25,818 nt of DNA from positions 1 through 25,818 of IMG/VR virus record IMGVR_UViG_3300030098_000224, one strand, 5' to 3'. Origin of the DNA: a virus. The position numbers and the translations under genes are program-made. This document shows, one piece after another, positions 2,411 to 22,258 of the stretch. Each line of letters opens with the position of its first letter. Within the stretch, counting starts at the first letter, position 1. The notes under the pieces are model-generated. The model was not told the origin of the DNA. It saw only the letters and a program-made list of their open reading frames with translations, and did no database searches.

Positions 2411-2969
2411 ATTTTAATCTCCTATATGATTGTCGTTTTTTAACAGTCCCTTCGTAGTAGTCGCTTGGCCAACTGCGATAGAAACCAATTTTATCTAGAT
2501 TAGCACTTGCCTTCTCTAGTTCTTCAAATGGTTGTATTAAAACCATAAGAAACTCGTTATCTGGAACCCAATCTGTATCCTCAAGAAATGTTACAGGTTC
2601 ATCCTCCTCTTCATCTTCTGGATGAAAACACATAAGGTAAACATCCTTCGGAACAAAGATATGATTAAATGCATGTATAAAATCATTTAACTCATCGGCT
2701 GTGTAAAACAAATCATCACAACCAATTATTGTAATTTGTTTATTAAATTTTTTAATATTTTGACACTCGTAGACAATTGTCTCAAGCAGTGTATCTGATT
2801 TATGTAATTCTATAATTCTAAGTTTATTATTTAATCTAGCTCTTTTTGCGTAAGGACAGGCAGGAACATTACCAAGATGTTTGTTTGGTAGTTCAATAAA
2901 GTCTCTTGACCAAGAGATTATATCCTCTGTGATGGTCTTAGCTTTTCTTTTTTTTGTGTCTGTCTGCAA
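2385..2969 (-). CDS. Conserved marine-phage protein with CPYAKRA motif (about 180-194 aa)
   Basis: A soluble protein resembling a small family I associate with marine phages, with an 'PNKHLG.VPACPYAKRARL' N-terminal signature (about residues 28-46), a central alpha/beta part (ITIIGCDDLFYTADELNDF) and a C-terminal YRSWPSDYYEGTVKKRQSYR segment. Function is unknown. The start is a problem: no ATG exists between the last in-frame upstream TAG and the conserved region. The longest choice uses TTG at 2969, inside the end of the DUF6321 gene and without a clear ribosome site. The true start may be this TTG or a rare codon near 2935. An A8 run lies in the overlap. Confidence 0.8.
   Translation of the reverse strand: MQTDTKKRKAKTITEDIISWSRDFIELPNKHLGNVPACPYAKRARLNNKLRIIELHKSDTLLETIVYECQNIKKFNKQITIIGCDDLFYTADELNDFIHAFNHIFVPKDVYLMCFHPEDEEEDEPVTFLEDTDWVPDNEFLMVLIQPFEELEKASANLDKIGFYRSWPSDYYEGTVKKRQSYRRLKYARNEKKS
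2418..2423 (-). promoter_or_regulatory. Ribosome-binding site AGGAGA
   Basis: AGGAGA sits 7 bases before the ATG at 2410 and lies within the coding sequence of the upstream gene. It fixes the start of the 49-residue polybasic protein and supports that this short ORF is translated. Confidence 0.65.
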
Positions 2970-3213
2970 ATGCTTTAGCCGATTTTTTTGAGCGGAAACC
3001 CCATGCTCTAAGTGCTAAACCTAGTCTAGTTGGCTTTCCCTTTTCATCTTTTTCTTTACCCTTCATCCCTGCAAATCTCGCAGCGAAAGAAATTCTTCGT
3101 GGATTGACACCCCGTTTGACCGGAGGCTTTAAGTTAGAACCTTCTTTCTTTTTAAAAAAGGCTCTACCTTTAGCCGTTAAACCACCTTTGGGATTCTTAT
3201 GTTCTTTTCTCAT
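2938..3213 (-). CDS. DUF6321-like basic protein (91 aa)
   Basis: The sequence HKNPKGGLTAKGRAFF, then GSNLKPPVK, NPRRISFAARFAGM and GKPTRLGLALRAWGF matches the order of motifs in DUF6321: 'NPKGGL...GR..F....G..LK.PV....NPRR.SF..R..GM......GKPTRL.L.LRAWGF'. That family occurs in tailed phages and some bacteria and has no known function. The protein is strongly basic and ends HKKKKS. Its ATG overlaps the previous stop as ATGA. Its 3' end overlaps the next gene by 32 bases across an A8 run. Confidence 0.85.
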   Translation of the reverse strand: MRKEHKNPKGGLTAKGRAFFKKKEGSNLKPPVKRGVNPRRISFAARFAGMKGKEKDEKGKPTRLGLALRAWGFRSKKSAKAFADRHKKKKS

Positions 3214-3341
3214 CTCTTGGCAGTTTGTTTTGCTCTTTTAAATTGAGCAGCAGTCGGTGCACCTTTTGCACCTTTCTTTCTCATCTTTTCTCCACGCTTT
3301 CTTTTAGCATGGATGTTTGCATATAATCCTCGTCTAGCCAT
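3210..3341 (-). CDS. Small conserved phage protein, GLYANIHAKR type (43 aa)
   Basis: An ATG-started 43-codon ORF, MARRGLYANIHAKRKRGEK, continuing MRKKGAKGAPTAAQFKRAK. This is the recurrent phage miniature protein pattern '(K)GLYANIHAK..R...GSGE.MRKPG.KGAPT...F..A..TAK'. Function is unknown. It is strongly basic. AGGTGATT precedes the start as ribosome site, overlapping the stop of the tiny upstream ORF. The stop overlaps the next start as ATGA. Confidence 0.85.
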   Translation of the reverse strand: MARRGLYANIHAKRKRGEKMRKKGAKGAPTAAQFKRAKQTAKR

Positions 3342-3347
3342 AATCAC

Positions 3348-3386
3348 CTACTTTGTTAAACAAGCTCCACCGCAATATTCACACAT
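3348..3386 (-). CDS. Candidate 12-residue Cys-rich micro-ORF
   Basis: The ORF encodes MCEYCGGACLTK. It has an ATG start with AGGAGT at ideal distance (4 bases) and a TAG stop 7 bases before the next gene's ATG. The CxxCxxxC arrangement could bind a metal ion or form a disulphide. Tiny Cys-rich ORFs beginning MCxYC occur in other phage small-gene clusters as far as I recall, but I cannot verify conservation here. It might instead be a leader or coupling ORF for the 43-residue gene. Confidence 0.45.
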   Translation of the reverse strand: MCEYCGGACLTK

Positions 3387-3390
3387 ATTA

Positions 3391-3396
3391 ACTCCT
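3391..3396 (-). promoter_or_regulatory. Ribosome-binding site AGGAGT for the micro-ORF
   Basis: AGGAGT stands 4 bases before the ATG at 3386 in the short gap after the gene ending at 3409. It is among the best ribosome sites in this small-gene cluster, and its only nearby start codon is that of the 12-codon ORF. Confidence 0.55.
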
Positions 3397-3408
3397 ATAA
3401 GTTACCAT

Positions 3409-3600
3409 TTATTTCTCGTGACACTCAAGAGAAAATCTATAAAATTGATTTAATTCATGTTTTATCCAATTATTCTGGACTATCTTACACTCCTCAAATG
3501 GCATTGGATGATTTAAAACCATTTGATTTCCAACATAAACCCATTCGTTACTAGCTGTAAGTCCCCATAAACTAATTACTAAAACATATAGTGTTTCCAC
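3409..3600 (-). CDS. Small exported or membrane-anchored two-cysteine protein (63 aa)
   Basis: Starts at GTG (TAGTG overlap). Residues 1-17 (METLYVLVISLWGLTAS) form a hydrophobic signal-like segment. The remaining short domain has two cysteines about 20 residues apart (EECKIV ... LECHEK) and aromatic residues around NQFYRF. The layout is like the 78-residue protein at 21504-21740, suggesting related small periplasmic proteins. A lysis accessory, such as a spanin-like subunit, is possible but there is no lipobox. Function is unknown. Confidence 0.65.
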   Translation of the reverse strand: METLYVLVISLWGLTASNEWVYVGNQMVLNHPMPFEECKIVQNNWIKHELNQFYRFSLECHEK

Positions 3601-3854
3601 TATCTCTTTTTCTTTTTAGCAGTCTTCTTTTTCTTACCACCTCTGAGTAAATCTTTATCTGCTTTTCTAGCTCCACCTTTCCCAGTCGCAAAACTCCGCA
3701 CACGCCCTGATGCCCATGCATGCTGTGAAACTTTAGGTCTTGAACCCGCAGAAAAATATGCGGCAGCACCTCTTGAATATACTTTACTTAAAGTTGATTT
3801 AGATATGCCACTTGATTTGTGATACTTATCAATAACTGCTTGTTTGCTACTCAT
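3600..3854 (-). CDS. DUF5824-like basic protein (84 aa)
   Basis: Residues about 19-66 read TLSKVYSRGAAAYFSAGSR, then SQHAWASGRVRSFATG and ARKADKDLL. This matches the DUF5824 pattern 'L..VY.RG.AA...GSRPG.S.H.WA..RV.SF..G....KADKDL'. The family is common in phages and nucleocytoplasmic large DNA viruses and is uncharacterised. The last 15 residues are almost all Lys/Arg. Their codons AAGAAAAAGAGA precede the TAGTG junction and serve as the next ribosome site. The start is ATG, in an ATGA overlap with the upstream gene. Confidence 0.85.
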   Translation of the reverse strand: MSSKQAVIDKYHKSSGISKSTLSKVYSRGAAAYFSAGSRPKVSQHAWASGRVRSFATGKGGARKADKDLLRGGKKKKTAKKKKR

Positions 3855-4042
3855 CCTTTACTCCTTTTTTTGCTAATAGCTTTCATCATAGCAGGAGTTA
3901 GTTTTCCTGCTTTATAAAGTTTTGCTGTTCTTTTTATTTCAGCTTCCCTTGCTTTTGGGTTTTTTGCACCACGAACATACTTAGTAGGAACACCACCTTT
4001 TGTTTTTGGAACAGGTTTAAATTTTCTTTTTTTCTTTTTCAT
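3851..4042 (-). CDS. Small conserved basic phage protein (63 aa)
   Basis: After a Lys-rich start (MKKKKRKFK) it reads GGVPTKYVRGAKNPKAREAE, then IKRTAKLYKAGKLTPAMMKA. The repeated phage pattern 'GVP.KY..GAKN...RE.EI..TA..Y..G.LTP.MM..ISK.RS' is familiar from other phage genomes, always as a short protein of unknown role. It is predicted to be mostly helical and very basic. ATGA overlaps join it to both neighbours, which suggests coupled translation. Confidence 0.8.
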   Translation of the reverse strand: MKKKKRKFKPVPKTKGGVPTKYVRGAKNPKAREAEIKRTAKLYKAGKLTPAMMKAISKKRSKG

Positions 4043-4269
4043 ATTTTGTTTGACCTATTCTTCTTTCTAGAAAGTATTCTAAGATTACTTTTCTTGTTGT
4101 TTGCTGTGTTCTTATCTTTGTGATGCACATCTTTTTTAGAATATTTTTTTACTCTACCTTCTCTTATCGCTTGTCGTCTAGCTTTATTTCTTTGTGCTCT
4201 TCTTTTTTTTTGTTCTTTACTTGCATGGTATGTTGCATATTCACGCTTGTAATTACGAACTCTTGTCAT
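4039..4269 (-). CDS. Small HNH-like protein (76 aa)
   Basis: The N-terminal half is an Arg/Lys-rich helix (YHASKEQKKRRAQRNKARRQ). The C-terminal half carries KDVHHKDKNTANNKKSNLRI (about residues 46-65), an HNH-type core with paired His, Asp, Asn and a NLR turn. Such short proteins, with 'Y...P.QK.RRA.RN.ARR' before 'DVDHKDGNP.NN...NLR', are common next to phage packaging or structural genes. It may be a DNA nicking or packaging accessory, or a structural remnant of an HNH domain, since it is much shorter than typical HNH nucleases. Confidence 0.75.
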   Translation of the reverse strand: MTRVRNYKREYATYHASKEQKKRRAQRNKARRQAIREGRVKKYSKKDVHHKDKNTANNKKSNLRILSRKKNRSNKI

Positions 4270-4910: not shown

Positions 4911-5121
4911 TAAGATAAAACCTTGCCTTTTCTAAATCTTGCAAGGGATTGCCCTTCGCATCAAATCTAAACATATACTGAACACATTGTGTCCACAATG
5001 ATGCTTGAAACAAAGTCATGTTAGATTTGTCTAACTTGGCTTTCAACACATCCAACAGTTCAAACCCCTCGAACCGGTAGTGTGGAGGATAGTTTACTAA
5101 ATCTTTTTCTTTCTCTTCCAC
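4876..5121 (-). CDS. DUF3310 family protein (81 aa)
   Basis: The pattern VNYPPHYRFEGFELLDVL (about 9-26) and, later, QCVQYMFRFDAKGNPLQDLE with ARFYLNEII matches DUF3310 ('VNHP.HY....E.ID.I......F..GN..KY..R...KG....DL.KA.WYL..L'). The family is frequent in tailed phages, where it is sometimes labelled a nucleotide-kinase-associated protein. Its biochemical role is not established. The start is GTG with a weak ribosome site, overlapping the phosphoesterase gene by 25 bases. The family's usual glycine in 'GN.IKY' is replaced by QCVQY. Confidence 0.85.
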   Translation of the reverse strand: MEEKEKDLVNYPPHYRFEGFELLDVLKAKLDKSNMTLFQASLWTQCVQYMFRFDAKGNPLQDLEKARFYLNEIIKEEYKKK

Positions 5122-6155
5122 AGTATTTCTTCAGATGCCTCCTGCAAATTAAAAACTGGTTTTATAAATCTCAATGGCTCATCTTGACTAGGGTCAATGA
5201 TAAAACACATAGACTCCCATATTTTATGATTTCTAAACCCTTTCTGCAAGGAATATTCGTCTAACTCCTTGTATCCTGCCACTCTTACAGCATGTGAAAT
5301 CTTGCCGGTTTCGTGGTCTTTTACTATTTGATAGCCAGAAACATGCTTATGACCTGCTGCATAAATATCATCTGAGCCAAATCTAGCTGCCTTTGATACA
5401 GAGTGTGACTCATTCCATTGACTGTGACCTGCAAAATCATGTCTACAATTTAGTTTTATAGACCTGCCATTTGGACAAATTAAGTTTAATCTAAAGCCAT
5501 GATTTTCATAAACACCCGGCTTTGTTCTCATTATAAAATCTAAAACATTACCATGTTCATGTCCCCAAAAATCATGGTTACCACCTACAACTCCTGCCCA
5601 ATAAACTCCGCTACTACCAAGATACCACTCAATAAGTTTTATAGCTTGCTGTCTTGTTGTTTCTTGGTCAGCATACTTTGCCATGAGTCTGCCAATCCAA
5701 TTGTTTGTCAAATCTCCTATGTTTATTGCAACCATAGAAGAATCAATCATAGCTTTGTTATCTTGTGTTATGGCTTTCCAATTACAACCATCGTCATCAA
5801 GGTGTGGGTCTCCAACTATTGCAACTCCAAATACTCCATTAAATTTATTAGATAAATTTATGTTGATTAGTTTTCTAGCATTGTGTGCTGCTTGTTTTCT
5901 TTCCCATCTCTTTACACCTCTATCTACTAATTCTTCTGCTGATAAATCACCATCCGGTAATTCATCTACCCAGAAAGGAGGGTCTGACATTTCATCAGTA
6001 GTATTGTTTCTTTCTTTGTATTGATTAATTCTAAATCTAACTGTGCCTTCACTAACATTAAGTTCTCTTGCTACTGTCTGTGTTTTGCCATTGTGTTTTT
6101 TCCAACAGTCAAAAGTTTTTTGTAATATTTCGTTAGATGTTCTCTTTGCAGGCAT
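5097..6155 (-). CDS. HTH-calcineurin-like metallophosphoesterase (352 aa)
   Basis: Two parts are visible. Residues 8-50 form a helix-turn-helix (KTQTVARELNVSEGTVRFRI), like transposase or resolvase DNA-binding domains. Residues about 105-330 form a calcineurin-like phosphoesterase with all metal-ligand motifs: GDPHLDD (D116, H118), GDLTN (D148), GGNHD (N193, H194, D195), the C237-x-HDFAGHS region (H239, H244) and GHKH (H269, H271). By family it hydrolyses phosphoesters using two metal ions, with DNA or nucleotides as likely substrates in phages. The DNA-binding head suggests a nucleic-acid target. It sits between the late structural and small-gene blocks. Joined by TAATG to the upstream gene. 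Confidence 0.85.
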   Translation of the reverse strand: MPAKRTSNEILQKTFDCWKKHNGKTQTVARELNVSEGTVRFRINQYKERNNTTDEMSDPPFWVDELPDGDLSAEELVDRGVKRWERKQAAHNARKLININLSNKFNGVFGVAIVGDPHLDDDGCNWKAITQDNKAMIDSSMVAINIGDLTNNWIGRLMAKYADQETTRQQAIKLIEWYLGSSGVYWAGVVGGNHDFWGHEHGNVLDFIMRTKPGVYENHGFRLNLICPNGRSIKLNCRHDFAGHSQWNESHSVSKAARFGSDDIYAAGHKHVSGYQIVKDHETGKISHAVRVAGYKELDEYSLQKGFRNHKIWESMCFIIDPSQDEPLRFIKPVFNLQEASEEILWKRKKKI

Positions 6156-6394
6156 TACTTAATACCAATTGCTGTTTTCACTCCCAATACTAATAGAGCT
6201 ATGGCACCCGATATGATGAAACCAATAATAATAAATCTGACACGCAGACTAATCTTTTCATGTAATTTTCTTTGTTCTCGCAAATACATAAAATCTTTTT
6301 GGGCCTCATAAATTTCTTCCGAGTTAAGTCCCATTTTAGCGAGGGTTTCGTCAACTGTTTTTGATACTATTTCTTTTACCTCGTTTTCCGTCAT
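6155..6394 (-). CDS. Small membrane protein, DUF6127-like (79 aa)
   Basis: An N-terminal acidic helix (MTENEVKEIVSKTVDETL) carries the pattern 'ALGL(N/D)..D' as KMGLNSEEIYEAQKDF. A basic segment (EQRKLHEKISLRVR) is followed by one membrane span (FIIIGFIISGAIALLVLGV). The order resembles the small phage and prophage family DUF6127, of unknown function. The ATG at 6394 gives an ATGA overlap with the polyvalent gene. A GTG at 6406 would add four residues. The ATG is preferred because of the junction type and the GGTGG 8 bases upstream. A lysis or superinfection role is possible but unproven. Confidence 0.75.
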   Translation of the reverse strand: MTENEVKEIVSKTVDETLAKMGLNSEEIYEAQKDFMYLREQRKLHEKISLRVRFIIIGFIISGAIALLVLGVKTAIGIK

Positions 6395-9300
6395 AGCGTA
6401 AACCACCTCTCTCTTTTGACTCTTTCTCCCGTTTTTTTCTCATATTCAAGAACTTGCTCTATTAATGCTCTAATCATGTCATTTTTTAAAACATTAAGTT
6501 GTCTTACTTTGTCTATAATTTCAGCGTTAGATAGTCTCTTATCGGCCTCAATTAACCTTATTTGTCTATTTATTTGCTGTATTTTACGATTTACTCTGTT
6601 GTAGGATTTACGCCACACAAGTAAATTTTTCTGTTCAGTGGCTACATTCATAGCTTTTTCCCATTCACCTCTAGATTCATACAATCTTTGTAATGCAAAA
6701 ACCTCATTCATTTCTTGCAATTGGTCGTAAAACTGTGTTTTGTATTTAGATTGCACACTAGGTAAAGATTTAAAGAAACCCATAGCTAATGGAGTATCCC
6801 AACCTGTAGATGTGAATCTTGCATACTGTCTTGGATAATCTGTAAACGATACTGCTGCCGCAACTGTTGAACCAACCCATCCAAAGTAACCTTGAACTAA
6901 GTGTTCTATTTGCACAGGAGATAACCTTATTTTATCAAATGATATAGTATTTAATATTTTAGATGTGTTTACATAGGCAGAGCTTGTGTATGCATATTTT
7001 CTTTCTGTAGCAGGTAACCTTCTAAAAGCCATGCTTTCAACAGGTCTACCTGTAAAACTATCTTTGTTAGAGTAAACCTCTAAAGCAGGAGTTAAGAGTT
7101 GTGGTCTATAATCAAATGCAAAAGTCTCTGTAATTACATGTTGTATTCTTTCAGCTAATAAAGCTCCATGAACATCATCATCAACCATTTGCTCAACCAT
7201 TCTTTCAAAGATAACTCCGATAGCTCCTACCTCAAATGGTCTAGGTATTCTAAATACACCTTCTGTTCCGGGTATCTTAAACCAATGATATGTATCTCTA
7301 TCCCATTGTTCTCTTTGTTTAAAATCTTCATCATCTTTGTATGCAAGATATAAACCAATTGAAGCCAAAGAATAAGTTCCAAGAACAGCAAACAATTGTG
7401 CTCTTTGCTCTGGGCCCATTGCTCTTGTAAGTTTATCTAAACCTTGTAATCTTGCATTTAAGAAAGGAACAGATTGAGTTAAGAACCTAACAATAGGATT
7501 AGCACCATGTCTGCTAAAGTTTAATAAATCACGAGCTTGATAACTAGCTTCAAAGTGACTGACACCTTTATCTCTTAATTGTTTATAAAGTGCTGCTCTG
7601 TTTACATTCTCTGAAAAAGCACCTACATCCTCCCACCATCTAGCTGCTCCGCCTAATTGTTTGTATAATAATTTTCTTGCACCTGCACCCCAACCATTAG
7701 ATTTCATAATAGTGTTAGCATCAATCTGTCTATTTAATAACATTTCAGAAGCATTTGGGTCTGCTCCGTAAATATGTCCAAAGTGAATGCTACCACCACC
7801 AAAACCAAGTCTTGCTCTAAGCTCTGATGCTTGTTTATTTTTATCTTTTTTTAAACTACCAAATCCCTCTAATACGTTTCCAAGTGGATTAACTTTTAAT
7901 TTACCAACAGCAACAGAATGCACTGAATCTCTAATTAAGTTTCTAATTCTAAATGCAGGACTTGCAGTTACACCATAAGTTAAAAATCTTTTAAATTGTC
8001 GTAGTGTTCCCATCGCAGGATTTTGCCAACCATTCCAATTTAACGCTGTTAGAGATTGTAACACCAAAGGTTCATCAACCTCATAGAATACTTTTTTACC
8101 ATTCTTTCTTACAAATACAGATGTTTTTGTTGGAAACTTAACTTGTCTGGTTACACCCATAGTTGCACCTTTTTCAAGTGTTTTTAAACCTGCTGCATTT
8201 TTTAAAGATGCCTCAGTTAAGAAAGCATAGTTTTGAATTAAATTATTTAACAAATCATTTACAGGTAAATCAGAACCACGAAGAGCAGGATAATCTTTTT
8301 GATTAACAATATCAGCAGCAGCTTTAGGCCCACTGTTGCTAGCCTTGTCGTCTAGTAATCTATAGAAAGGTATGTAAAAATTAAATCCATCAACCTCAGT
8401 CCAAGCCTTTCTTGATTGTGGGTCTAAGTATCCAGATTTAACAGCTATATCTAAAAATGCGTTATTAAATTCTTGTAAATCTTTTAAACCTTCATTAAAT
8501 TTTTTTTCTCTACCTTTTTGTAAATCTTTTATTGCTACAATTACATCTGCTCGACTGGATAGTCCTGCTTCCATTCCTCTGTCGTATATAGCTTTTGCCC
8601 TGTTTGCTGCTACCCAAGTTAAAAAATCTGTAAGGTCTGGCCCTAATTTTTCTAGTCTTGAAAATAAACCTTTACCTAGAGTATTTGCTTTTAAATCTAT
8701 AGCACCATCTTTATCCATAAATGGAACACCATATAATAATGCTGATTCCGTAGCACCACTAGAACCATAAGTCATGGTTAATGCTTTGTATGGTTCTTCA
8801 CCTATAAATTTTTTGACTGATATATATTGGTCAGTTAAACCTTGTTGTAATCTAACACCAAAGTTATCTGCGTACTGTTTCCAAAATCCTGCAATAGTTC
8901 TTCTAGACCTTTTAGGATTTACTGTTGCTTGTACTCTTTGAGTTGCTTCTTCATATTTTCTATCAGTAACGGCAAACTCTAAATTGTTTTCTATAAGTTT
9001 TTCTTGCGATAACGTATCTAGTTCAGACTTACCTACGTTTTCTTTATCACCTTCTGTTTCAAACTTGTAAAGAACTTGTGACTCAATGTTATCTAATGGC
9101 TCTGGTGCATCCTCTCTAGAGTAATACTCTAGTTCGCCTTCTGTATACACTTTAGTGTTAAACATTACGGCATCACCCTTAATAGATTTAACAGCAAACC
9201 CAGATGGGTCTACAAACAAGTGATGATTGAAAGGATTAAAGTTTAAAACTACACCATCTAATTTTGGTTTCTTACTAGAGTATTGACCTCTAGCAGCAGC

Positions 9301-12300
9301 CATAGGGAACTTGTTTTCTTTTTTAGAAGCTATATTTGCTCTTGCTCGTTGGCTTACAAATAAAGTTGGATTAGTTACTGTTACCGCACCATCGTATCCT
9401 AGAGCTTTATTTAGATTATTGCCCGGATGAATAGTTTGTATAAATAATTTGTTTTCGTTTTTCTCTACCTTACCCTTTAAGTTTGGTCTAACAGATACTC
9501 TCTCACCATCTTTAAGTTCTCTGTTTTTAAATAGTTTTGCTTTTACTCTATCTGGTATACCTGCTGATTCTGATATTTCTTTATCTGTAAGTAAATCTTC
9601 TGACACTGAAAATTGCAGCTCATCTGCATCTTTCATTTCTTTATCAGTAACAACCTCTCTTGTTATAAATGCATCTTTACCTACGACACCGGCTTTTTTT
9701 CTTGCACCTGTAATCCTTAGACCAGAGTATTTGGTGACACCTAGTCTATCTTTCATTTGTTTTGCAACTTGTCGCCACAAATTAACGGATGCTACCTTTG
9801 ATGGTTCGTTTAAAGTAAAATCAAATAACGATGTATTAGCTACATAAAAAGTGTCACTCTCTGTAATGGCACCTTGAATAACGCCTACGGGTTTATCATC
9901 TACGTCAATACCAATTTTAAATCTGCCTGTTCGGTCACCAAAATCTTTTACCTTTTTAAGTTTTTCGCCAGAATCAATTTCCATAATTCTAACATCACCT
10001 ACCTCTGCGTCATAGAAATCTGGACTAGGTTCGTCAAAGAAAACTAATTTTACTTTACCATCTATTTTTTTATCGGATACAGAAAACTCTTTTGGTATTA
10101 CATCTGTTAAATTATCAGAGACGCTTAAATCTTTTTGTCCTTTTGGTTGTCTTGTGATTCTTTCGCCATCTACTTCAAACCCTGCTCTCTTGTACCAATC
10201 AGCTAATTTTTTCTTACTTAAACCTTTATCTCCAAATGGGTCAATGATACCTGTAATTACAGAACCCTCTTCATCTGCTACTTTAATAATTTCTCCAAGT
10301 GCTTCTGATGCGTAACCTTGTCCTCTGCCTTCTTTTGGAACAGATATAGCTGATAAATCTAATGCATCTTTGTCAAATATATTTAATTCTACTTCTACAT
10401 AATTACCTGTTTTAAATATATTATCGAATTGTTTTAAACCTTTTTCTGGTTGTATTGCATCACTAGGAAGCAACATAAAAGTATAGCCTCTTTTTAAAGG
10501 ATGTTTTCTTACGCTATATTTACCAAATTTATTTATTTCTTCGAAATTATTTGCTTTAGCTAAAATTTCATTTGTAAACATTTGTTGACCCTTGACCATC
10601 TCTGGTTTGAATCCTAATATTTTTTTAAATGCTTTTTCTGATGTGCTTAATGAAAACTGAGGTATTTCTCCGTCATCAGTTTGTTTTTTTATTTGTTGTC
10701 TTTGGCTGACTGAGAGTTGTCTTGTTTCTGTTTTTTCTTTTGTGACTCTTTCTTCATCTTTTTGTCTTCTAAGTCTAGCCTGAGATTCAATGCTTGGCTG
10801 ACGATTTTTAAGCTCTCTTTCTCCATAGTTTTTTCCTTTATCAAAATTATCTATATACTTTTGAGCACCCTCTGACAAGTACATAGCACGAACTGTTCTA
10901 ATACCTAAATCTCTGTAAAGATTGTGCTCATAAAACCAATGCACAGCTTGTGCATCTTTAGCAGATAAACCTACTCTTTTCCCTAAATCATTATAAAATT
11001 GGTCACCTCTTTTAATATGTTGAGATAGAAAATCTGCTCTTACTCCATCTTTCTGTGTTTTATCTGTGAGCATACCAAACTGTCTGTAAAAACTTCTTGT
11101 TGCCCACAAATCTTTTGTTACTGCTTTACCTTCTTTGTCAGCAACACCAGATATGTTTAAAAAATATGAACCAACTTTGTTGCCAAACATATACGCACCT
11201 AAGTGCTCACTATCTAAACCACCAAGCATATCAGATGGTTCAGCAGTTTTACCATAATTTAGTTTAAATACACCACCATAGTCTTCTTCTCCAGACTTAA
11301 CCATTATATCTTTCATAGTTCTTTTGGTATGAATACTGTTTAAAAATCTCACAGCACCTTTTTCACCTTTTGAGTCTATTAGATATTGTAATAAAGCAAG
11401 CTGTTTACTAATTGTATCTCTACCAAAAAATTTATCTGTATTAGATGGTTGCTTTAAAGGTAAAGCTCCGAATTTTTTGTAATAAGAAAATACTCTACCT
11501 GCCCTTTCAATATTTTCTACTGGAGTAGATTGAGGAGATGTAATACCAGTTATTACTGTAAACAAATCTTTGTCGTACTGATTTTTTACCTGTATTTTTT
11601 TATTTAAAATTTTAAATTTCTTTATAATATCTTTATCATACCAACCACGACCATCGTCTTCTTGACTTTCTATTTGATATCTTATTTCTTTTTCAGCAGC
11701 ATCTAGTGCACGATTATATGCGGCATCATCAAGTGGGTCACTTTTATTTACTAATTTATCAAAGAAAGGCCCTGCTTGATTTACTTTTTTTAATTTAGTT
11801 GTAGGTTTTTCTCTAAATTTTACAGTAGATACAGCTAGTTCTAATCCCGGTGCTCTCTCTACTGCTCTTGCATAAGCCTTACCTATTCTTGTTAATTCTG
11901 CTTGTCCGTATTCTTGACTTACATTTCTACCAGATGCATCACCTATTCTTGCTGTTGCACCAGTAACATCATCTCTAACAATTATGTATTCTTTATCGCT
12001 GAGTAATTGTTGTTCGTTATTTGCTAATAATACAACATCCTCTGCTTCACCTTTTTGCTCTGGTCTTCTTCTTGCGACCTGCATTTTAAGAAGTCTGTTA
12101 CCTGTTATACCTCTGTTATAAATTGTTTTAATTATCTCTTCCCCGTAGTTCGGGTCAATATTAGGTATAATAGATTTGATATCACCCTTGTCTGTTTTAA
12201 CAGTCGTAAGTGATAATTCTTTTTTATCTTCTCTTGCTAGTGCTTCTTTTCGTAATTGTTCTACACCCTCTTTAGGTTTAGCTCTCTTACCTATCTCACC

Positions 12301-14295
12301 TGTTCTAGCTTTTTCAAACAGTTGGTTAACATTATTAATTTTGTTTTTTCTAAATACATTACCTGCACGCTTGACTAATTCAAACAAGCGATTAAATGCT
12401 CTTATGACTGGATTAGGTGCTGCAAGGTTTTTCTTTTTAGCTTTTAATGCAGTGTATGCTCCAAAGGCATAAGCTTGCATCTCTCTGTTAGAAAGATTGT
12501 TTTCTCCATGTCGCTCTTGCAATCTCTGCATAACATCTTTGCCGAGACCACGCTGTACAGACGGAGCGATTTCAGATACTTTACCACCCGGCAAAAAAGT
12601 GTCTAGTGCCGTTTGTTCTGCTTCCAAGAATAAACCACTCTGATAACCACGATTTATCTGTCTCTGCAACGCATGAAAATTTTCATGTGCAGTAGTTTCT
12701 ACGGCTTTTGATTGGTCTATTAATGAGATTGCTGCTAGGTCACTTGTTCTGTCATACCAACCATCGACTACGGAAAACTCGTTTCCGCCAGATGCTTTGA
12801 CATTTGACAGATTGCCTTTTGGTAAGGCTATATTTTTTTGAAAGTAAACTTGTTGTACATGTGGTGCAATAGTGTTTCCAACATCTTCTAATTCATTGAT
12901 TAGATTACCTACAGTTGGGTTTTCTTTAACTATAGCTTCTTTAGTAAAGTATGTTTGTTCTGTTAATTTGTTTTTTTGGTCTTCTTGTTTTTGCTGCTCT
13001 GCTGTGGCTTCTGCTTCGGTATTAAATGTTCCAATTGTACCTATACTCGATACATTTCCTGCTGTATCTAAGTCCTGTCTTTTTAATGCAAATTTTTCTC
13101 CCTGCTTTTCTACTACAAAGTTTTTGGGTTTGGCTTGCTCTGTTTTTACCTGTTCTTCAGTTGCTGTATCAATTTGTTCTGGCGTTACTTTAGTGTCTTG
13201 TATTACACCTTTTTCTACCTTTGGTGCCTCTACAGGTTTTTCTACAGGAGTTGTAGGAGTTGGTTGTACTGTTCTAGCTGTTTCACCTGCTACAGTTGAT
13301 ACACCACCAAGTAATCCACCGACAAAACCACCTGCAAAAGCTGCTTCTTTATACTCAGCCAACGCCTCTGGTGAATCTATTGGTAAACCTGCTTGATATC
13401 TTTCAAGAGCTTGCTGACCTACCTCAGTTGCTGCCTCCGTTACTAATCCTGCTGTCGAACCTTTGGCAACACGACCTAATGTTGCTTGACTTAAAATATC
13501 TGAGAATTGTGTTCTTGTAAGTGGGCCAAATAATCTACCCATTATAGGGTACATTAAAGATTCTGCTGCTGCTTGTGGCAATGCTGTAAAAGCAGCTAAT
13601 CGCTCATCTATTGTTTCTAGATTACCTGCATTAACTTGTTCTTGCTGTCTACTAATATTAAATTCAAACAATCTTGGAAACGCTGCTGTTGCACCACCTA
13701 AAAGAGCACCTGCCGCAGCACCTAATGGCCCTGCAAAACGACCTATTTTTGCACCTGCTATCGCACCTGCTGCACCCTCTACTATGAAAGGTGATGATTG
13801 TCCAAAAGCTGATAAACCTGCTTTAACAAAAGTGCTTAATCCTGCATCTGGGCCCTCTGTTGCTTGTGCAAAACTTACATAACCAGTGCCTCTTAATATG
13901 TTTGCATCTTGAATTTCTGCTTGGTTGTATAATTGTGCCGCTCTCTCTTCGTCTCCCATGAGACCTGCAATACCACCTCTTAATCTTGTTATTGCCGGGC
14001 CCCACGACCTTGCCCAACTTGATTTAAGTGGGCCTGTCAACGCTTGACCAAAACCTACATCGGATGGACTTTTGGCAGGAGCAAAAGCTCTCTTACCACC
14101 TGTACGAATATCGGGAGATGTTAAATCAGTAGGACTAGCAACAGGAGAAACTTGTCTTTCTTCTGTTAAACTTTTAATAAATTGTTCTGGACTTAAATCA
14201 CCTTGATAGTCATCTAGAAGTTGCTCTATAAGCTCATCGTCACTTACATAAGCAAGACTAGGGTTTTCATCTCTAATCTGGTCTAATAAACTCAT
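6391..14295 (-). CDS. Giant phage polyvalent protein with HExxH, GNAT and LPD38-like regions (2634 aa)
   Basis: This is the largest gene, about 31% of the window. The N-terminus (SLAYVSDDELIEQLLDD) is followed by Ala/Gly-rich hydrophobic segments at about 155-218 and 320-340 that could enter membranes. Next come a Gln/Lys/Glu-rich linker (about 350-450), an HExxH motif (H537-E538-H541), a domain around 850-1130 with TGITSPQSTP and KDLWATR, a GNAT domain (about 1214-1390, GRGQGYA 1323-1329), a second alpha/beta module (1404-1562), a module with GYDGAVTVTNPTLFV and FNPFNHHLFVDPSG (1562-1774), and a long helical C-terminal region matching the LPD38 type (about 1900-2634, FRIRNLIRD and LQGLDKLTRA), ending in a coiled coil. 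Polyvalent proteins are thought to be packaged and injected with DNA to act on the host. Eight [FL]-[SA]-[VL]-[ST] peptides separate the modules. AGGAGT precedes the ATG. Confidence 0.85.
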   Translation of the reverse strand: MSLLDQIRDENPSLAYVSDDELIEQLLDDYQGDLSPEQFIKSLTEERQVSPVASPTDLTSPDIRTGGKRAFAPAKSPSDVGFGQALTGPLKSSWARSWGPAITRLRGGIAGLMGDEERAAQLYNQAEIQDANILRGTGYVSFAQATEGPDAGLSTFVKAGLSAFGQSSPFIVEGAAGAIAGAKIGRFAGPLGAAAGALLGGATAAFPRLFEFNISRQQEQVNAGNLETIDERLAAFTALPQAAAESLMYPIMGRLFGPLTRTQFSDILSQATLGRVAKGSTAGLVTEAATEVGQQALERYQAGLPIDSPEALAEYKEAAFAGGFVGGLLGGVSTVAGETARTVQPTPTTPVEKPVEAPKVEKGVIQDTKVTPEQIDTATEEQVKTEQAKPKNFVVEKQGEKFALKRQDLDTAGNVSSIGTIGTFNTEAEATAEQQKQEDQKNKLTEQTYFTKEAIVKENPTVGNLINELEDVGNTIAPHVQQVYFQKNIALPKGNLSNVKASGGNEFSVVDGWYDRTSDLAAISLIDQSKAVETTAHENFHALQRQINRGYQSGLFLEAEQTALDTFLPGGKVSEIAPSVQRGLGKDVMQRLQERHGENNLSNREMQAYAFGAYTALKAKKKNLAAPNPVIRAFNRLFELVKRAGNVFRKNKINNVNQLFEKARTGEIGKRAKPKEGVEQLRKEALAREDKKELSLTTVKTDKGDIKSIIPNIDPNYGEEIIKTIYNRGITGNRLLKMQVARRRPEQKGEAEDVVLLANNEQQLLSDKEYIIVRDDVTGATARIGDASGRNVSQEYGQAELTRIGKAYARAVERAPGLELAVSTVKFREKPTTKLKKVNQAGPFFDKLVNKSDPLDDAAYNRALDAAEKEIRYQIESQEDDGRGWYDKDIIKKFKILNKKIQVKNQYDKDLFTVITGITSPQSTPVENIERAGRVFSYYKKFGALPLKQPSNTDKFFGRDTISKQLALLQYLIDSKGEKGAVRFLNSIHTKRTMKDIMVKSGEEDYGGVFKLNYGKTAEPSDMLGGLDSEHLGAYMFGNKVGSYFLNISGVADKEGKAVTKDLWATRSFYRQFGMLTDKTQKDGVRADFLSQHIKRGDQFYNDLGKRVGLSAKDAQAVHWFYEHNLYRDLGIRTVRAMYLSEGAQKYIDNFDKGKNYGERELKNRQPSIESQARLRRQKDEERVTKEKTETRQLSVSQRQQIKKQTDDGEIPQFSLSTSEKAFKKILGFKPEMVKGQQMFTNEILAKANNFEEINKFGKYSVRKHPLKRGYTFMLLPSDAIQPEKGLKQFDNIFKTGNYVEVELNIFDKDALDLSAISVPKEGRGQGYASEALGEIIKVADEEGSVITGIIDPFGDKGLSKKKLADWYKRAGFEVDGERITRQPKGQKDLSVSDNLTDVIPKEFSVSDKKIDGKVKLVFFDEPSPDFYDAEVGDVRIMEIDSGEKLKKVKDFGDRTGRFKIGIDVDDKPVGVIQGAITESDTFYVANTSLFDFTLNEPSKVASVNLWRQVAKQMKDRLGVTKYSGLRITGARKKAGVVGKDAFITREVVTDKEMKDADELQFSVSEDLLTDKEISESAGIPDRVKAKLFKNRELKDGERVSVRPNLKGKVEKNENKLFIQTIHPGNNLNKALGYDGAVTVTNPTLFVSQRARANIASKKENKFPMAAARGQYSSKKPKLDGVVLNFNPFNHHLFVDPSGFAVKSIKGDAVMFNTKVYTEGELEYYSREDAPEPLDNIESQVLYKFETEGDKENVGKSELDTLSQEKLIENNLEFAVTDRKYEEATQRVQATVNPKRSRRTIAGFWKQYADNFGVRLQQGLTDQYISVKKFIGEEPYKALTMTYGSSGATESALLYGVPFMDKDGAIDLKANTLGKGLFSRLEKLGPDLTDFLTWVAANRAKAIYDRGMEAGLSSRADVIVAIKDLQKGREKKFNEGLKDLQEFNNAFLDIAVKSGYLDPQSRKAWTEVDGFNFYIPFYRLLDDKASNSGPKAAADIVNQKDYPALRGSDLPVNDLLNNLIQNYAFLTEASLKNAAGLKTLEKGATMGVTRQVKFPTKTSVFVRKNGKKVFYEVDEPLVLQSLTALNWNGWQNPAMGTLRQFKRFLTYGVTASPAFRIRNLIRDSVHSVAVGKLKVNPLGNVLEGFGSLKKDKNKQASELRARLGFGGGSIHFGHIYGADPNASEMLLNRQIDANTIMKSNGWGAGARKLLYKQLGGAARWWEDVGAFSENVNRAALYKQLRDKGVSHFEASYQARDLLNFSRHGANPIVRFLTQSVPFLNARLQGLDKLTRAMGPEQRAQLFAVLGTYSLASIGLYLAYKDDEDFKQREQWDRDTYHWFKIPGTEGVFRIPRPFEVGAIGVIFERMVEQMVDDDVHGALLAERIQHVITETFAFDYRPQLLTPALEVYSNKDSFTGRPVESMAFRRLPATERKYAYTSSAYVNTSKILNTISFDKIRLSPVQIEHLVQGYFGWVGSTVAAAVSFTDYPRQYARFTSTGWDTPLAMGFFKSLPSVQSKYKTQFYDQLQEMNEVFALQRLYESRGEWEKAMNVATEQKNLLVWRKSYNRVNRKIQQINRQIRLIEADKRLSNAEIIDKVRQLNVLKNDMIRALIEQVLEYEKKTGERVKRERWFTL
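10129..10653 (-). other. Embedded GNAT acetyltransferase domain
   Basis: Residues about 1215-1389 contain the beta4-alpha3 acetyl-CoA loop as AISVPKEGRGQGYASEAL (Q/R-x-x-G-x-G/A satisfied by RGQGYA), a downstream beta5 (SVITGIIDP) and the typical C-terminal KLADWYKRAGFE. The domain is bounded on both sides by paired junction peptides (1194 and 1214; 1390 and 1404). Substrate is unknown; a host protein or amino group is plausible for an injected effector. Confidence 0.75.
12673..12687 (-). other. HExxH zinc-metallopeptidase motif in the polyvalent protein
   Basis: Codons 537-541 read H-E-N-F-H in the context TTAHENFHALQRQ. HExxH with an upstream threonine/alanine helix is the zincin signature (two His ligands plus catalytic Glu). 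A third ligand is not obvious; candidates are acidic residues in GLFLEAEQTALD, about 15-20 residues later. Activity is therefore inferred, not shown. Confidence 0.6.
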
Positions 14296-14305: not shown

Positions 14306-15860
14306 AACCAAATTTAAATAATTCTCTAAAGAAATCTCCATAATCAAAACCACCACCACTCTCTTCTGCTGCTTTATTAGCAGAGGCAATGTTAGTGTTT
14401 GCAATTCCTAAATCTTTAGCTAACTCTTGCTCTATTAATTTTTGTTTTTCTGCTCCATCCATAATATCCCAATTTGGTGTTATACTTGCTAAATATTTTT
14501 CTATTTCTGGTCTGCTTCTTACAGCAATTGCAGGAGTGCCGTCAGCTTTTAATATTGGTTTAAATGTGTTAGTAGATGCATCAAAGGTTGCATATACTCT
14601 TTGACCTTTATCATTTGTAATAATAGTTGGTGATGACTTACCTGTTCTACCCTCACCTCTGTCAAATGCCGCTCTCGCTTCTAACGCTTCTATTTCAGCA
14701 TCAGTTTTTCTTTGTGCTGCTTTCTTACCTCTCTGCTCTTGTAAAGTTGCAATACCTGCTTGACCTGCTTCTCCTAATGCTTGTAAGAAATAAGGACTCT
14801 TAGATGCCATCATAGCAAAACCTGCTGATGCAAGTGGTAGTGCCCATTCTGGAATATCTTTTTTACCTTTATTTCCTGTAAGTTTAGCTAAATCATCAGA
14901 TGTTTCTTTTGCTTCTTTTGGTGTTTGCTTATTTGCAGGGTCATCAAGACCTGCTGCTTTTCTATATTCTCTCTCTGTATCTGGCACATCAAAATCAGCT
15001 ATACCGCCCTTACTGTCTGGTTTAGGTTTAGGTTTTATTTCTGGTACAACATCATCTTTTTTAGGCATACCTTTTTGTGTATCTTCTTCTTCTCTTTTCT
15101 TTTGTTCCTCTGTAACTCTTGGTAATGGTTTTTTATCTTCTTGTCCTTCAAATAATTCTGGTACTAAGTTTCTAAAAAATTCTCCAAAATCAAAACCATC
15201 ATCTTTTCTTTCTGTAGGTATACCTCTTATACCTTCTTCTTCATCAAACTTTTTCTGTGGTATAGGATTGATAGGGCCTACTTGTTTAGGAGGTGGTACA
15301 AAATCAGATGGTTTTTGTTCATCCTCAGCATCTCTTTGTTGTTGTTCAATGTTATCTGGCAATCTAGGACTAGTTGGGTCTGGTGTTACATCCACTACAC
15401 CGAATGGTGGTTCTGCTTGTGTGCTACCTTGAAATGTTTCTGTTGGCAGTGGAGGTTGTGATTCCATAACACCGGATGCTTTTAAATATTCTTCTTCTGT
15501 ATTTTGTGCTAATATTTTTTTTGCAAGTTCTTGACCCTCATCTGTCTGTGCTATTTTGTTTGCTTCATCTTGTACTTGTGGGTCATCCTCTGATTTGCCT
15601 AAAAGTTTAGCAGTTACTACTACTATTGCTCTATATATTTCTGCAAAACTATAAGGCTCTCCGCCATCTTGATAGCCAAGTGCCATAGGTAAAAAGCCAG
15701 ATGTTACTTTCATATTACTTTGTGGTATACCCGCTCTAACTTGCCCTCCGTTAGCGTAACCCTGTGGGTTAGTTTGCATAAAAAAGTTTAAGTGTTTAGT
15801 TTGCGGTAAAGTAGTTTTAAAATTTCTAGTGTCTGCGTATAGTCCTATTGATTTTTTCAT
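14304..15860 (-). CDS. Hydrophilic ejection-module protein with repeated FFR motif (518 aa)
   Basis: The N-terminus carries GYANGGQVRAGIPQ and GYQDGGEP, short double-Gly tags seen in other putative virion proteins here. Residues about 140-310 are Pro/Lys/Asp/Glu-rich and look disordered. A helical Ala-rich part follows (about 330-400, with IPEWALPLASAGFAMMASKS then a Gln/Ala/Arg coiled helix), then a small folded part containing ITNDKGQRVYATFD. The motif GFDFGEFFRNL at 222-232 recurs at the extreme C-terminus as GFDYGDFFREL (504-514). No enzyme motif is seen. Location directly before the polyvalent gene suggests an internal virion or scaffold-like partner. TAATG overlap with the upstream gene. 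Confidence 0.75.
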   Translation of the reverse strand: MKKSIGLYADTRNFKTTLPQTKHLNFFMQTNPQGYANGGQVRAGIPQSNMKVTSGFLPMALGYQDGGEPYSFAEIYRAIVVVTAKLLGKSEDDPQVQDEANKIAQTDEGQELAKKILAQNTEEEYLKASGVMESQPPLPTETFQGSTQAEPPFGVVDVTPDPTSPRLPDNIEQQQRDAEDEQKPSDFVPPPKQVGPINPIPQKKFDEEEGIRGIPTERKDDGFDFGEFFRNLVPELFEGQEDKKPLPRVTEEQKKREEEDTQKGMPKKDDVVPEIKPKPKPDSKGGIADFDVPDTEREYRKAAGLDDPANKQTPKEAKETSDDLAKLTGNKGKKDIPEWALPLASAGFAMMASKSPYFLQALGEAGQAGIATLQEQRGKKAAQRKTDAEIEALEARAAFDRGEGRTGKSSPTIITNDKGQRVYATFDASTNTFKPILKADGTPAIAVRSRPEIEKYLASITPNWDIMDGAEKQKLIEQELAKDLGIANTNIASANKAAEESGGGFDYGDFFRELFKFG

Positions 15861-16711
15861 TATCCGAATGCTCCAAATAATCCTGCACCCGCAGCTCCTA
15901 AACCTGCTAGTTGTTGAGCCATACTAGGGCCGGGTTGTTGTGAATAAGCTGTCATCATTTGTGCAGCAGGAACACCAGATAATAAATTACCTAATGTAGC
16001 AGCTTGCGTGAATGGGAACTGCTGTTGTCTTAAGAAGTCTTGATATGCAATATCCATACCTCTTTGCAATTGCTGTTGACCTTGAGCACCCGCTTGTCTT
16101 AATCCTTGTATACCTTGCTGACCAAGTTGCATACCTTGACCTGCAATAGTGCCAAACGCACCTGCTCCAGATAATTGTTGTGCTTTTTGTGCTTGTGCCG
16201 CTCTTAGAGCTTGGTCGTAATTTTGTTGTGCTAACTGTGTTGCAGTTCTAGCTTGTTGCTGTTGCAAGTTTCTCTCTTGCTCTGCTCTCTGCACACCAAA
16301 TCTACCACCACCAAATGCACCAGAACGCACGGCAGCATCAGATAATCTTTGTCCTGCAATATCAGATTGTCTTCTCATTTCATCTAACACATTACGGGTA
16401 ACAGACTGTGTAAATGGATTTTGATATTGCTCTATGTCTTGCTGTGTTATTGGAGAAACAGCCATAGATGTTAAACCTCTTGCTTGTGCTAAATCTGGCT
16501 CAAAGGCTTGTTGTTGTTGCACTGCTCGCTGCCTAGCTAATTGTTGTTCAAACGTAAGTGGTGCTAATCTTTGTCCGCCATAAGGCACATAGCCTACACT
16601 AGGGTCTGTAACCGCTCTTGCTTGTTGCGTTAACTGTTTGTACGCATCTTCAAGAAAAGCAGGTAGTTCTCTTTTTTCTGTTGTTGTATATATTGGTGCT
16701 CCAAAACACAT
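15860..16711 (-). CDS. Gln/Ala-rich coiled-coil virion protein (283 aa)
   Basis: The order of features matches a protein widespread in marine phage structural clusters. An N-terminal PYGGQRLAPLTFEQQLA is followed by YQNPFTQSVTRNVLDEM (about 96-112), SDAAVRSGAFGGGRFGVQR (124-142), a long Gln-rich coiled coil (143-230), and an Ala/Gly-rich C-terminus (LAGLGAAGAGLFGAF). The 'NP(Y/F)T..V......E..R' plus 'SGAFGGSR' combination is what I rely on. It is probably an internal or ejection protein forming a trans-envelope channel with its neighbours; the role is inferred from context. GGAGGT lies 9 bases before the ATG. Confidence 0.8.
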   Translation of the reverse strand: MCFGAPIYTTTEKRELPAFLEDAYKQLTQQARAVTDPSVGYVPYGGQRLAPLTFEQQLARQRAVQQQQAFEPDLAQARGLTSMAVSPITQQDIEQYQNPFTQSVTRNVLDEMRRQSDIAGQRLSDAAVRSGAFGGGRFGVQRAEQERNLQQQQARTATQLAQQNYDQALRAAQAQKAQQLSGAGAFGTIAGQGMQLGQQGIQGLRQAGAQGQQQLQRGMDIAYQDFLRQQQFPFTQAATLGNLLSGVPAAQMMTAYSQQPGPSMAQQLAGLGAAGAGLFGAFG

Positions 16712-16712
16712 A

Positions 16713-17144
16713 TTACTTGTACCTCCAAATGTTACCCATATCTTTAAATCCTAATCTTTTGTATAATGCAGGTGTATCGTTACCAGAGCTAATAGGTAAT
16801 TGAATTGTTAACTCTCTAGTTTTTGCATACTCCTTTAATTTTTTTAACAATGCTCTCGCTGTCTTAAAGTTTCTATATTTTGGTAAAATATAAAACCATG
16901 TTTCAGCTAAAAACTTTTCATCGCTAAACCACCACTCTGATTCAAATGCTGCTATACTACCAATAACCATACCATCTTGATATGCATTGCATATAAAGCC
17001 ATCATCAAAGTGTTTTTGTATTGCTATTGCAACACGAGTAATGTCAGCCTCCGGATAAATATCCGCAAACTCTTCTCTAAACACTAATAAAAGTTTTAGT
17101 GTGTCTTTTAAATCTTCGTACTTTGGTTTTTTAACTTGGAACAT
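16713..17144 (-). CDS. GNAT-family N-acetyltransferase, virion-module type (143 aa)
   Basis: GNAT topology is visible across 143 residues: an N-terminal helix pair, CNAYQDGMVIGSIAAFES (beta2-beta3), then ETWFYILPKYRNFKTARALL (81-100, beta4 and acetyl-CoA loop) and ALYKRLGFK near the C-terminus. The loop R91-N-F-K-T-A replaces the usual R-G-x-G-x-A glycines, so CoA binding may be altered. Similar stand-alone acetyltransferases are frequent among phage tail and internal protein genes, with unknown targets. It overlaps the upstream gene by 14 bases and its 3' end holds the next ribosome site. Confidence 0.8.
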   Translation of the reverse strand: MFQVKKPKYEDLKDTLKLLLVFREEFADIYPEADITRVAIAIQKHFDDGFICNAYQDGMVIGSIAAFESEWWFSDEKFLAETWFYILPKYRNFKTARALLKKLKEYAKTRELTIQLPISSGNDTPALYKRLGFKDMGNIWRYK

Positions 17145-21740: not shown

Positions 21741-22258
21741 TATCCGCCTAATGGATTAGACGTAGATAATTTTAATTCCTCTATTTGCACATCTTGTAAT
21801 TCATTTTCCTTTTTAATAATTGCAATACCTTTAGAATTTTCTTCAATGTCCTCTTCTAATTCCCAAGCATACTCCTCTAATTCTTTTATAGGCGTGCGTA
21901 ATTTTTTATCTAATTTATCTATGTCATCGTTAGATGCTGCATCTGCTAAAACAGATTGTATTACTTTAATATCTTTTATTATGTCTTGTGTAATAGCTTT
22001 AATATCATTGCTGTTACCTGCAATGTCATTTCTTAAATTATCTAATACATCATTATCTAAACTTATTATTGTAGTTTCTAATTCTTTCAATTTAACTTCT
22101 ATGTCTGTTAAATCTACAGTTTCATTTACCACAAACTCTTTATTTTCTATTTGGTCTAATCGCAAATTAAATTGACCCCATGTGTAGAAACCTCCACCTA
22201 TGGCACCGATAACTCCAATTAGTGCTGCGTATGTGCTTAATTTTTCTATAATTTTCAT
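21740..22258 (-). CDS. Membrane-anchored coiled-coil protein (172 aa)
   Basis: One N-terminal membrane span (about 10-28, YAALIGVIGAIGGGFYTWGQ) follows a short cytoplasmic MKIIEKLST. The rest (about 30-165) is a highly charged helix with heptad-like Leu/Ile spacing (IEVKLKELETTIISLDNDVL, LDKKLRTPIKELEEYAWELE), so a type II membrane protein with a periplasmic coiled coil. The topology is that of inner-membrane spanins, though they are usually shorter and lack this much acidic content. A virion trans-envelope factor is equally possible. Linked by ATGA and TAATG overlaps. Confidence 0.7.
   Translation of the reverse strand: MKIIEKLSTYAALIGVIGAIGGGFYTWGQFNLRLDQIENKEFVVNETVDLTDIEVKLKELETTIISLDNDVLDNLRNDIAGNSNDIKAITQDIIKDIKVIQSVLADAASNDDIDKLDKKLRTPIKELEEYAWELEEDIEENSKGIAIIKKENELQDVQIEELKLSTSNPLGG

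Follow-up and report, generated by a model that had tools for sequence, protein, structure and literature searches.

A recurring junction peptide between interchangeable modules of a phage polyvalent protein

The window analyzed here is a complete 25.8-kb viral record (25,818 nucleotides; IMG/VR record IMGVR_UViG_3300030098_000224), and its largest gene encodes a polyvalent protein in which a short peptide of the form [FL][SA][VL][ST], preceded by an acidic or amide residue, recurs eight times. Below, WIN denotes the window's own polyvalent protein, and L-numbers (L001, L003 and so on) denote related viral contigs or their proteins. WIN combines several effector-type domains and an LPD-type domain in one polypeptide, as phage polyvalent proteins do (Iyer 2017); this assignment is based on LPD38, the single clear Pfam domain of the protein, on a gp82-like module and weak GNAT and DUF7178-like matches, and on methyltransferase, YunG and gp82 matches above the Pfam cut-offs in relatives. 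The C-terminal core of WIN is also found in proteins of other phages. The only context for delivery into the host, into which the polyvalent protein is probably ejected, is a neighboring gene (15860-16711) that has a match (E 7.6e-13) to a PHROG labeled DNA ejection protein. The gene and its parts are as follows, in the order of the protein.

6391-14295, minus strand: the LPD38-bearing polyvalent protein, 2634 residues, with LPD38 at residues 2322-2483 (E 4.2e-30)
12673-12687, minus strand: HENFH zinc-peptidase-type motif, residues 537-541; the invariant Glu605 (NREMQAYAFGAY) is the likely third ligand
12205-12219, minus strand: junction 694, ELSLT; EFSLT, EYSIT and EYSIL in L003, L020 and L022, respectively
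11839-12213, minus strand: fast-evolving module between junctions 694 and 820, residues 695-819, a block in the AlphaFold prediction
11827-11841, minus strand: junction 820, ELAVS, where the high DNA identity to L001 stops
10717-11835, minus strand: DUF7178-like module, residues 821-1193, from a weak Pfam match (E 0.018) and a home-made family hidden Markov model
10705-10719, minus strand: junction 1194, QLSVS, the entry of the variable cassette array
10645-10659, minus strand: junction 1214, QFSLS, from the pattern scan and AlphaFold
10129-10653, minus strand: GNAT cassette, residues 1215-1389, a weak Pfam match, missing from L022
10117-10131, minus strand: junction 1390, DLSVS, from the pattern scan and the L022 comparison
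10075-10089, minus strand: junction 1404, EFSVS, from the pattern scan and the M2 comparison
9613-10083, minus strand: module M2, residues 1405-1561, present in L020 and L022 too
9601-9615, minus strand: junction 1562, QFSVS, the right end of M2
8977-9609, minus strand: module M3, Phage_L5_gp82-like, residues 1563-1773, free-standing in contig L018
8965-8979, minus strand: junction 1774, EFAVT, the start of the conserved C-terminal core; a phrog_18222 match begins at 1775
6394-8973, minus strand: conserved C-terminal core with LPD38, residues 1775-2634, with none of the eight peptides inside

A pattern scan returns exactly the eight peptides that a sequence-only reading of the window had pointed out, at residues 694, 820, 1194, 1214, 1390, 1404, 1562 and 1774. 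The span given there, 8971-12219, is right at 12219, while 8971 truncates the last peptide; with the preceding residue included the span is 8965-12219. Whole-protein shuffling gave 0.83 expected peptides against the 8 found and reached at least 8 in 0 of 2000 shuffles, and shuffling inside 100-residue blocks gave a mean of 0.85 and a maximum of 5, with at least 8 in 0 of 5000. The acidic or amide residue before the F/L was also borne out, as all eight peptides remain when D, E, Q or N is required, against 0.21 expected. Among the 24 orders of the four residue classes, the actual order gives 8 matches, the next gives 5 and the remaining 22 give 0-3; the order scoring 5 must be picking up the five [FL]S[VL]S sites already among the eight. 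Because the residue class was picked after the protein had been seen, the shuffle figures overstate the significance, and independent support comes from the recurrence of the peptide in L003, L020 and L022, partly at non-homologous junctions. The same choice of class after inspection favors an explanation by chance or by inherited module ends, in which each module keeps an ancestral leader peptide. The shuffles argue against this explanation, and so does a relative of the GNAT module in a 2482-residue protein of Tenacibaculum phage Gundel_1, which carries 0 motifs against 0.6 expected, implying that the peptide goes with this lineage and not with the GNAT module. We consider chance or inheritance very improbable.

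To locate the peptides relative to the modules, eight module blocks covering 79% of the protein were drawn from Pfam, family alignments and AlphaFold. In agreement with the sequence-only reading, none of the eight sites falls inside a block; the nominal probability of 3e-6 is too small, since the blocks were drawn with the sites known. In two weak AlphaFold models, all eight sites lie in segments with a predicted local distance difference test (pLDDT) score below 50 (nominal probability 0.002), as do about half of all residues in these models. The clearest case is a domain at 695-815, mostly at pLDDT 72-88, whose low-confidence flanks run up to ELSLT 694 on one side and start shortly ahead of ELAVS 820 on the other. 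Since both models are weak overall, the predicted position of the peptides in disordered linkers serves as supporting evidence only. This position also suits an alternative in which the linkers stay uncut and the peptides serve either as hinges or as short docking motifs, the latter as an extended strand held by a partner, a packaging core or neighboring modules; in this role they would help the chain to be packed into the head, to unfold for its passage through the tail and to refold afterwards. The conservation of the peptide described below agrees with it as well, and in the accessible part of its structural report the N4 virion RNA polymerase is an intact ejected protein with globular units joined by flexible linkers (PMC12633501). 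A plain hinge, however, needs flexibility and not a recurrent pattern of acid or amide followed by hydrophobic, small, aliphatic and Ser/Thr residues, and the long low-confidence stretch at 644-693, before junction 694, has no further copy. Nothing in the analysis argues against the docking version. Overall, we regard uncut linker elements as a serious but rather unlikely explanation.

The exchange of modules was followed in the close relatives with the same HENFH, namely L003, L020 and L022 (full open reading frames) and L001 (partial); L004, another partial sequence, is almost the same as the window over its stretch. With the preceding residue left free, [FLY][SA][VLI][ST] matches 8, 3, 5 and 4 times in WIN, L003, L020 and L022, respectively. 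All 20 matches come after E (15), Q (3) or D (2), and the 12 outside WIN all come after E or D. Close variants add further junctions, EFSAS in L003, ELSVD in L020 and ELSVR in L022. All four full proteins retain junctions 694, 820 and 1774, either as the motif itself or in closely similar form, and three of them (L020, L022 and WIN, not L003) retain the equivalent of 1194. The modules enclosed by 1194 and 1774 are GNAT (weak), M2 and the gp82-like M3 in WIN; at the equivalent place L003 has a methyltransferase (above the Pfam cut-off), L020 has YunG (above the cut-off), M2 and a methyltransferase (below the cut-off), and L022 has M2 and gp82 (above the cut-off). M2 has a junction peptide on each side in WIN, L020 and L022 despite its differing neighbors, and FSVS at its right end is invariant in the three while the codons differ. 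L022 represents an empty site for the GNAT cassette, matching WIN on both flanks (...LSVS / ...VAVSENLEDVI...). The exact framing of the GNAT domain proposed in the sequence-only reading holds: the weak Pfam GNAT match (E 0.019, which does not reach the cut-off) falls between 1214 and 1390, and it is exactly the insert between the equivalent junctions that is missing from L022. Variable cassettes are flanked by a conserved boundary, as at VENN-like recombination junctions, and, judged from the aligned sequences, the relatives show the peptides to be junctions between interchangeable modules. The L001 contig stops exactly at the second array junction (QF, its codon 1210), as if assembly fails where the cassettes vary.

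Some of the modules have relatives outside such proteins. A scan of viral contigs with M3 found L017 and L018, and M3 is free-standing in L018, a contig that carries a T4-type capsid gene (Gp23, E 3.8e-95). The free-standing gp82-like protein (L018 4232-4846) has a short leader, its first 21 residues, that ends in IAE just before SFSLA and, by eye, resembles a removable head-targeting leader. In Rhodoferax phage P26218 (L128), a small gene at 5080-5472, flanked by those for the terminase and the portal, shows similarity to the GNAT cassette (tblastn E 6e-5), with no match in Pfam. Together, the free M3 and this small gene suggest that the modules can work when separate. Neither the GNAT cassette alone nor M2 alone had relatives in viral contigs, in scans reaching close relatives only; alignment scans with M2 and with M3 and a scan with the zincin region returned only contigs already known; and the L018 M3 and the L022 M2 region had no match in named phages.

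For a closer view of the peptide, 31 family sites were compiled by hand with a gathering pattern that fixed P1, the residue before the F/L, to E, D or Q. In this list P1 is E (26), Q (3) or D (2), P1' is L (14), F (13), Y (3) or V (1), P2' is S (21) or A (10), P3' is V (17), L (7), I (4) or A (3), and P4' is mostly S (21) or T (4). P3 is free, with 11 residue types across the 31 sites, and the recurrent positions are P1 and P1'-P4'. T4 prohead protease sites carry L or I at P3, and a restricted P3 of the T4 or phiKZ type was not found here. A protease acting in trans, either a prohead or a host protease, could nevertheless be considered as the reader of the peptides instead of the protein's own zincin. 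The mostly Glu P1 (15 of the 20 matches with the preceding residue free) recalls the xxE cutting of phage ejection proteins processed by the prohead protease in SPN3US and phiKZ, where the accessible part of the report describes cuts after Glu, in SPN3US after AxE (PMC5694885), and the apparent leader of the free M3 in L018 likewise ends in IAE before SFSLA. On the other side, SPN3US has A and phiKZ has S at P3, according to the same part of that report, whereas here P3 is unrestricted and the constraint falls on the positions that follow P1; the 26 other window genes together contain a single match to a slightly wider pattern, against 0.49 expected; and an S78 protease was found in 0 of 10 records, the completeness of all of which is uncertain. 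A search for an S77 protease was uninformative because its control matched nowhere. Cleavage in trans is, in our estimation, quite improbable.

To distinguish conservation of the peptide from conservation of its DNA, codons were compared at 29 sites, with the L022 site at 1245 and the L001 sites excluded; L003 and L020 are close relatives, so the pairs are not independent. Codon identity among orthologues is 2/11 at 694 (3.7 expected), 4/14 at 820 (4.8 expected) and 4/8 at 1774 (2.7 expected), and for all non-orthologous pairs it is 181/599 against 183.5 expected. The fixed junctions keep the peptide with near-chance codon identity, implying that selection acts on the peptide. Junction 1194 is an exception, as its codons CTC TCA GTC AGC are identical in WIN, L020 and L022 (12/12 against 3.9 expected). 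No other identical run in the three reading frames has as many codons of three- to six-fold degeneracy (4; the next has 3), and three of the four codons are uncommon in the WIN frame. Codon identity is 76/180 against 55.3 expected for the array sites alone, and 43/58 against 19 expected for the array sites preceded by Pro-Glu, a subset picked after inspection.

These exceptions bear on the proposal of the sequence-only reading that the peptides are recombination seams, and on its strict form, in which cassettes are exchanged through short stretches of homologous DNA and the peptide recurs only as a consequence. In 15-codon blocks, the DNA identity of WIN to L001 is 52-82% to codon 345, 93-100% at 361-795, 89% at 796-825, 44-81% at 826-1185 and then 98-100% to the contig end. 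Of the three switches, the second lies inside the ELAVS codons at 820 and the third a few codons before QLSVS at 1194; the first, at about codons 346-361, is at no motif. In addition, L003 and L020 have in common a 54-nucleotide island, 87% identical, that is essentially the junction QNLDELTPELS[VI]S, and blastn found no similarity directly beside it on either side. The concentration of crossovers at the boundary amounts to two of three switches in one pair at or beside junctions and one island in another pair, which are few events. Together with the conserved DNA at 1194 and the codons common to the Pro-Glu array sites, they suggest that some junctions are also seams. Seams cannot be the whole story, since the peptide persists at 694, 820, 1774 and the right end of M2 while its codons drift; non-orthologous junctions overall have no more codons in common than expected by chance, and one L001 switch is away from any motif. 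The seam proposal was therefore retained for some sites and not for the junctions as a whole, and recombination as the sole explanation appears improbable to us.

A hydrophobic P1' is typical of zincin peptidases, and WIN carries a zincin-like HExxH motif with a downstream Glu; HENFH and Glu605 are invariant in the family alignments (5 rows; 4 rows). Our preferred reading, held with somewhat less than even confidence, is that a protease recognizes the peptides for limited proteolysis, the most plausible candidate being the HENFH zincin-like domain of the same polypeptide; this fits a linker-borne motif conserved at the peptide level in a protein with its own HExxH. The zincin-like domain would cut next to the bulky hydrophobic residue of the junction peptide and so set the modules free as individual proteins, either inside the host cell or while the head matures. 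With the same flanking peptide, cassettes could be gained, lost and exchanged without breaking the processing scheme. The junction DNA of the variable array (1194-1774) may double as a recombination seam. This reading builds on the location and recurrence of the peptides, cassette exchange with kept junctions, conservation at the peptide level and DNA-level sharing at some sites, and to these it adds a putative ejection, proteolysis, protease, scissile bond and timing. It is in line with the published proposal of zincin processing for polyvalent proteins (PMC5512222), with cutting after Glu in the SPN3US ejection proteins as a precedent (PMC5694885), and with the occurrence of M3 as a free phage protein and of the GNAT-like small gene described above. 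Separate translation of the modules from internal starts was also considered and is not supported, because no consistent Met follows the sites.

Several results weigh against cleavage by the zincin-like domain. The zincin call rests on HExxH...E; the Pfam match to DUF5700, a putative zinc peptidase, is weak (E 0.053, below the cut-off), a fold search with the weak model of residues 440-840 had a best E of 2.2, and searches of solved structures by sequence returned no zincin (best E 0.099 in one search). The N4 virion RNA polymerase has an HExxH domain and yet is packaged unprocessed (PMC5512222), and the accessible part of another report describes it as solved as a single chain (PMC12633501), so that cleavage in WIN does not follow from belonging to the family and is put forward as a proposal. 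Among 57 more distant proteins of at least 1500 residues, some of them overlapping loci of one contig, 50 carry HExxH and none is enriched in [EDQ][FYL][SA][VLI] at p<=0.01 (lowest p 0.05), implying that zincin and motif are not generally linked. Closer to WIN, L003 reaches only p 0.015 with this looser pattern (6 against 1.8 expected), and the L020 boundary between the module after 1581 and the methyltransferase has no recognizable motif. The DNA-level sharing at 1194 and at the Pro-Glu array sites is unneeded by the peptide argument, and both AlphaFold models are poor overall, with mean pLDDT values of 58.1 and 49.6. Separately, the best match among solved structures, to a yeast protein (E 0.0075), was judged unrelated.

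WIN, L020 and L022 pass the same enrichment test at p<=0.01, L001 being too short for inclusion, and on this sequence evidence the junction peptide is lineage-specific. The sequence-only reading had pointed to FS-type linkers in other phage polyvalent proteins. The comparison with relatives used 60 of 88 rows, duplicates and short contigs having been removed by hand. In distant proteins the dipeptides FS (139 against 111.7 expected) and YS (97 against 86.7) are only mildly raised. In a non-redundant set of up to 41 of them, [FY]S[PLNRAQ].R, picked after inspection, occurs 24 times against 4.9 expected, and the broader [FY][SA]..R 42 times against 41.3 expected. Nine of 11 matching genomes were fetched, G010 being already included and G128 being left out with a frame of 489 residues. 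In 17 held-out proteins, [FY]S..R occurs 7 times against 9.8 expected, [FY]S[PLNRAQ].R 5 times against 4.4 and a form of the WIN motif 5 times against 3.6. A general FS-type junction code was rejected on these held-out counts, which leave such generality unsupported, and the individual proteins were kept as possible lineage-specific cases. One distant protein, L091 (3538 residues), has a peptide of its own, with F[SA]PRQG and variants at residues 565, 583, 1113, 1461, 2162, 2406 and 2657; [FY][SA]PR occurs in it 5 times against 0.15 expected and is placed around RadC, DUF7178 and HExxH, suggesting that the code may differ between lineages. Peptides of the type [FY]S-x-x-R (such as MFSRKR, FSRERNPQ and FSAPR) were also seen repeatedly within single polyvalent proteins of L039, L034, L059, L073 and L092; such peptides were not enriched in the held-out set.

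A bolder version, which we put forward as possible but doubtful, is a self-punctuated polyprotein, in which one zincin would read the code E-[FL][SA][VL][ST], cutting after the E, and release swappable anti-host effectors after ejection, with other codes, such as F[SA]PRQG in L091, in other lineages. If this were true, it would be the junction code that frees cassettes to move, and the zincin would co-evolve with it.

VENN and DPxGL are junction motifs that stand before swapped toxin tips, and self-cleavage is proposed or known in some of these toxins. WIN is like the polymorphic toxins, contact-dependent inhibition and Rhs systems in that a short conserved sequence marks the border of exchangeable effector cassettes (PT-VENN and autoproteolysis appear in the accessible part of PMC3482391, which does not mention DPxGL); it is unlike polymorphic toxins, where one C-terminal tip is marked, in that eight internal junctions punctuate a string of cassettes. 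With the polyvalent proteins that carry zincin-like domains it has in common a giant multidomain architecture, LPD38, HExxH and effector modules such as GNAT and methyltransferase (PMC5512222), and it differs from them in having a defined junction peptide that its lineage has retained. That such proteins are processed by their zincins was proposed there in 2017, and the accessible part of that paper names neither cleavage sites nor a recurring junction peptide and does not contain the word 'linker'. The N4 virion RNA polymerase is likewise a giant ejected protein with HExxH and flexible linkers, but it is one intact chain, and no repeated junction peptide is mentioned in the accessible part of its structural report (PMC12633501). 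No recurring junction peptide in polyvalent proteins was described in open-access titles and abstract openings, with subscription literature outside the scope. Polyvalent proteins and the proposal of zincin processing are known, and within that scope the explicit junction punctuation in a polyvalent protein appears to be new. It bears on how the giant proteins that phages eject do their work, whether as a single chain or by letting go a set of effectors, and with eight exact candidate sites, natural comparisons of empty and filled cassettes and one putative catalytic residue to alter, the question can be put to a direct test. Such a code would also make it easier to delimit effector modules that lack annotation in phage proteins.

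Elsewhere in the window, a separate 143-residue GNAT acetyltransferase gene lies among the structural genes (16713-17144; Pfam E 2.9e-11). A 604-residue protein encoded at 22255-24069 has a long Glu-rich stretch and no Pfam family above the cut-off. At 2938-4269, small Lys/Arg-rich proteins are encoded nearly consecutively and look, by eye, like DNA-condensing or head-internal proteins.

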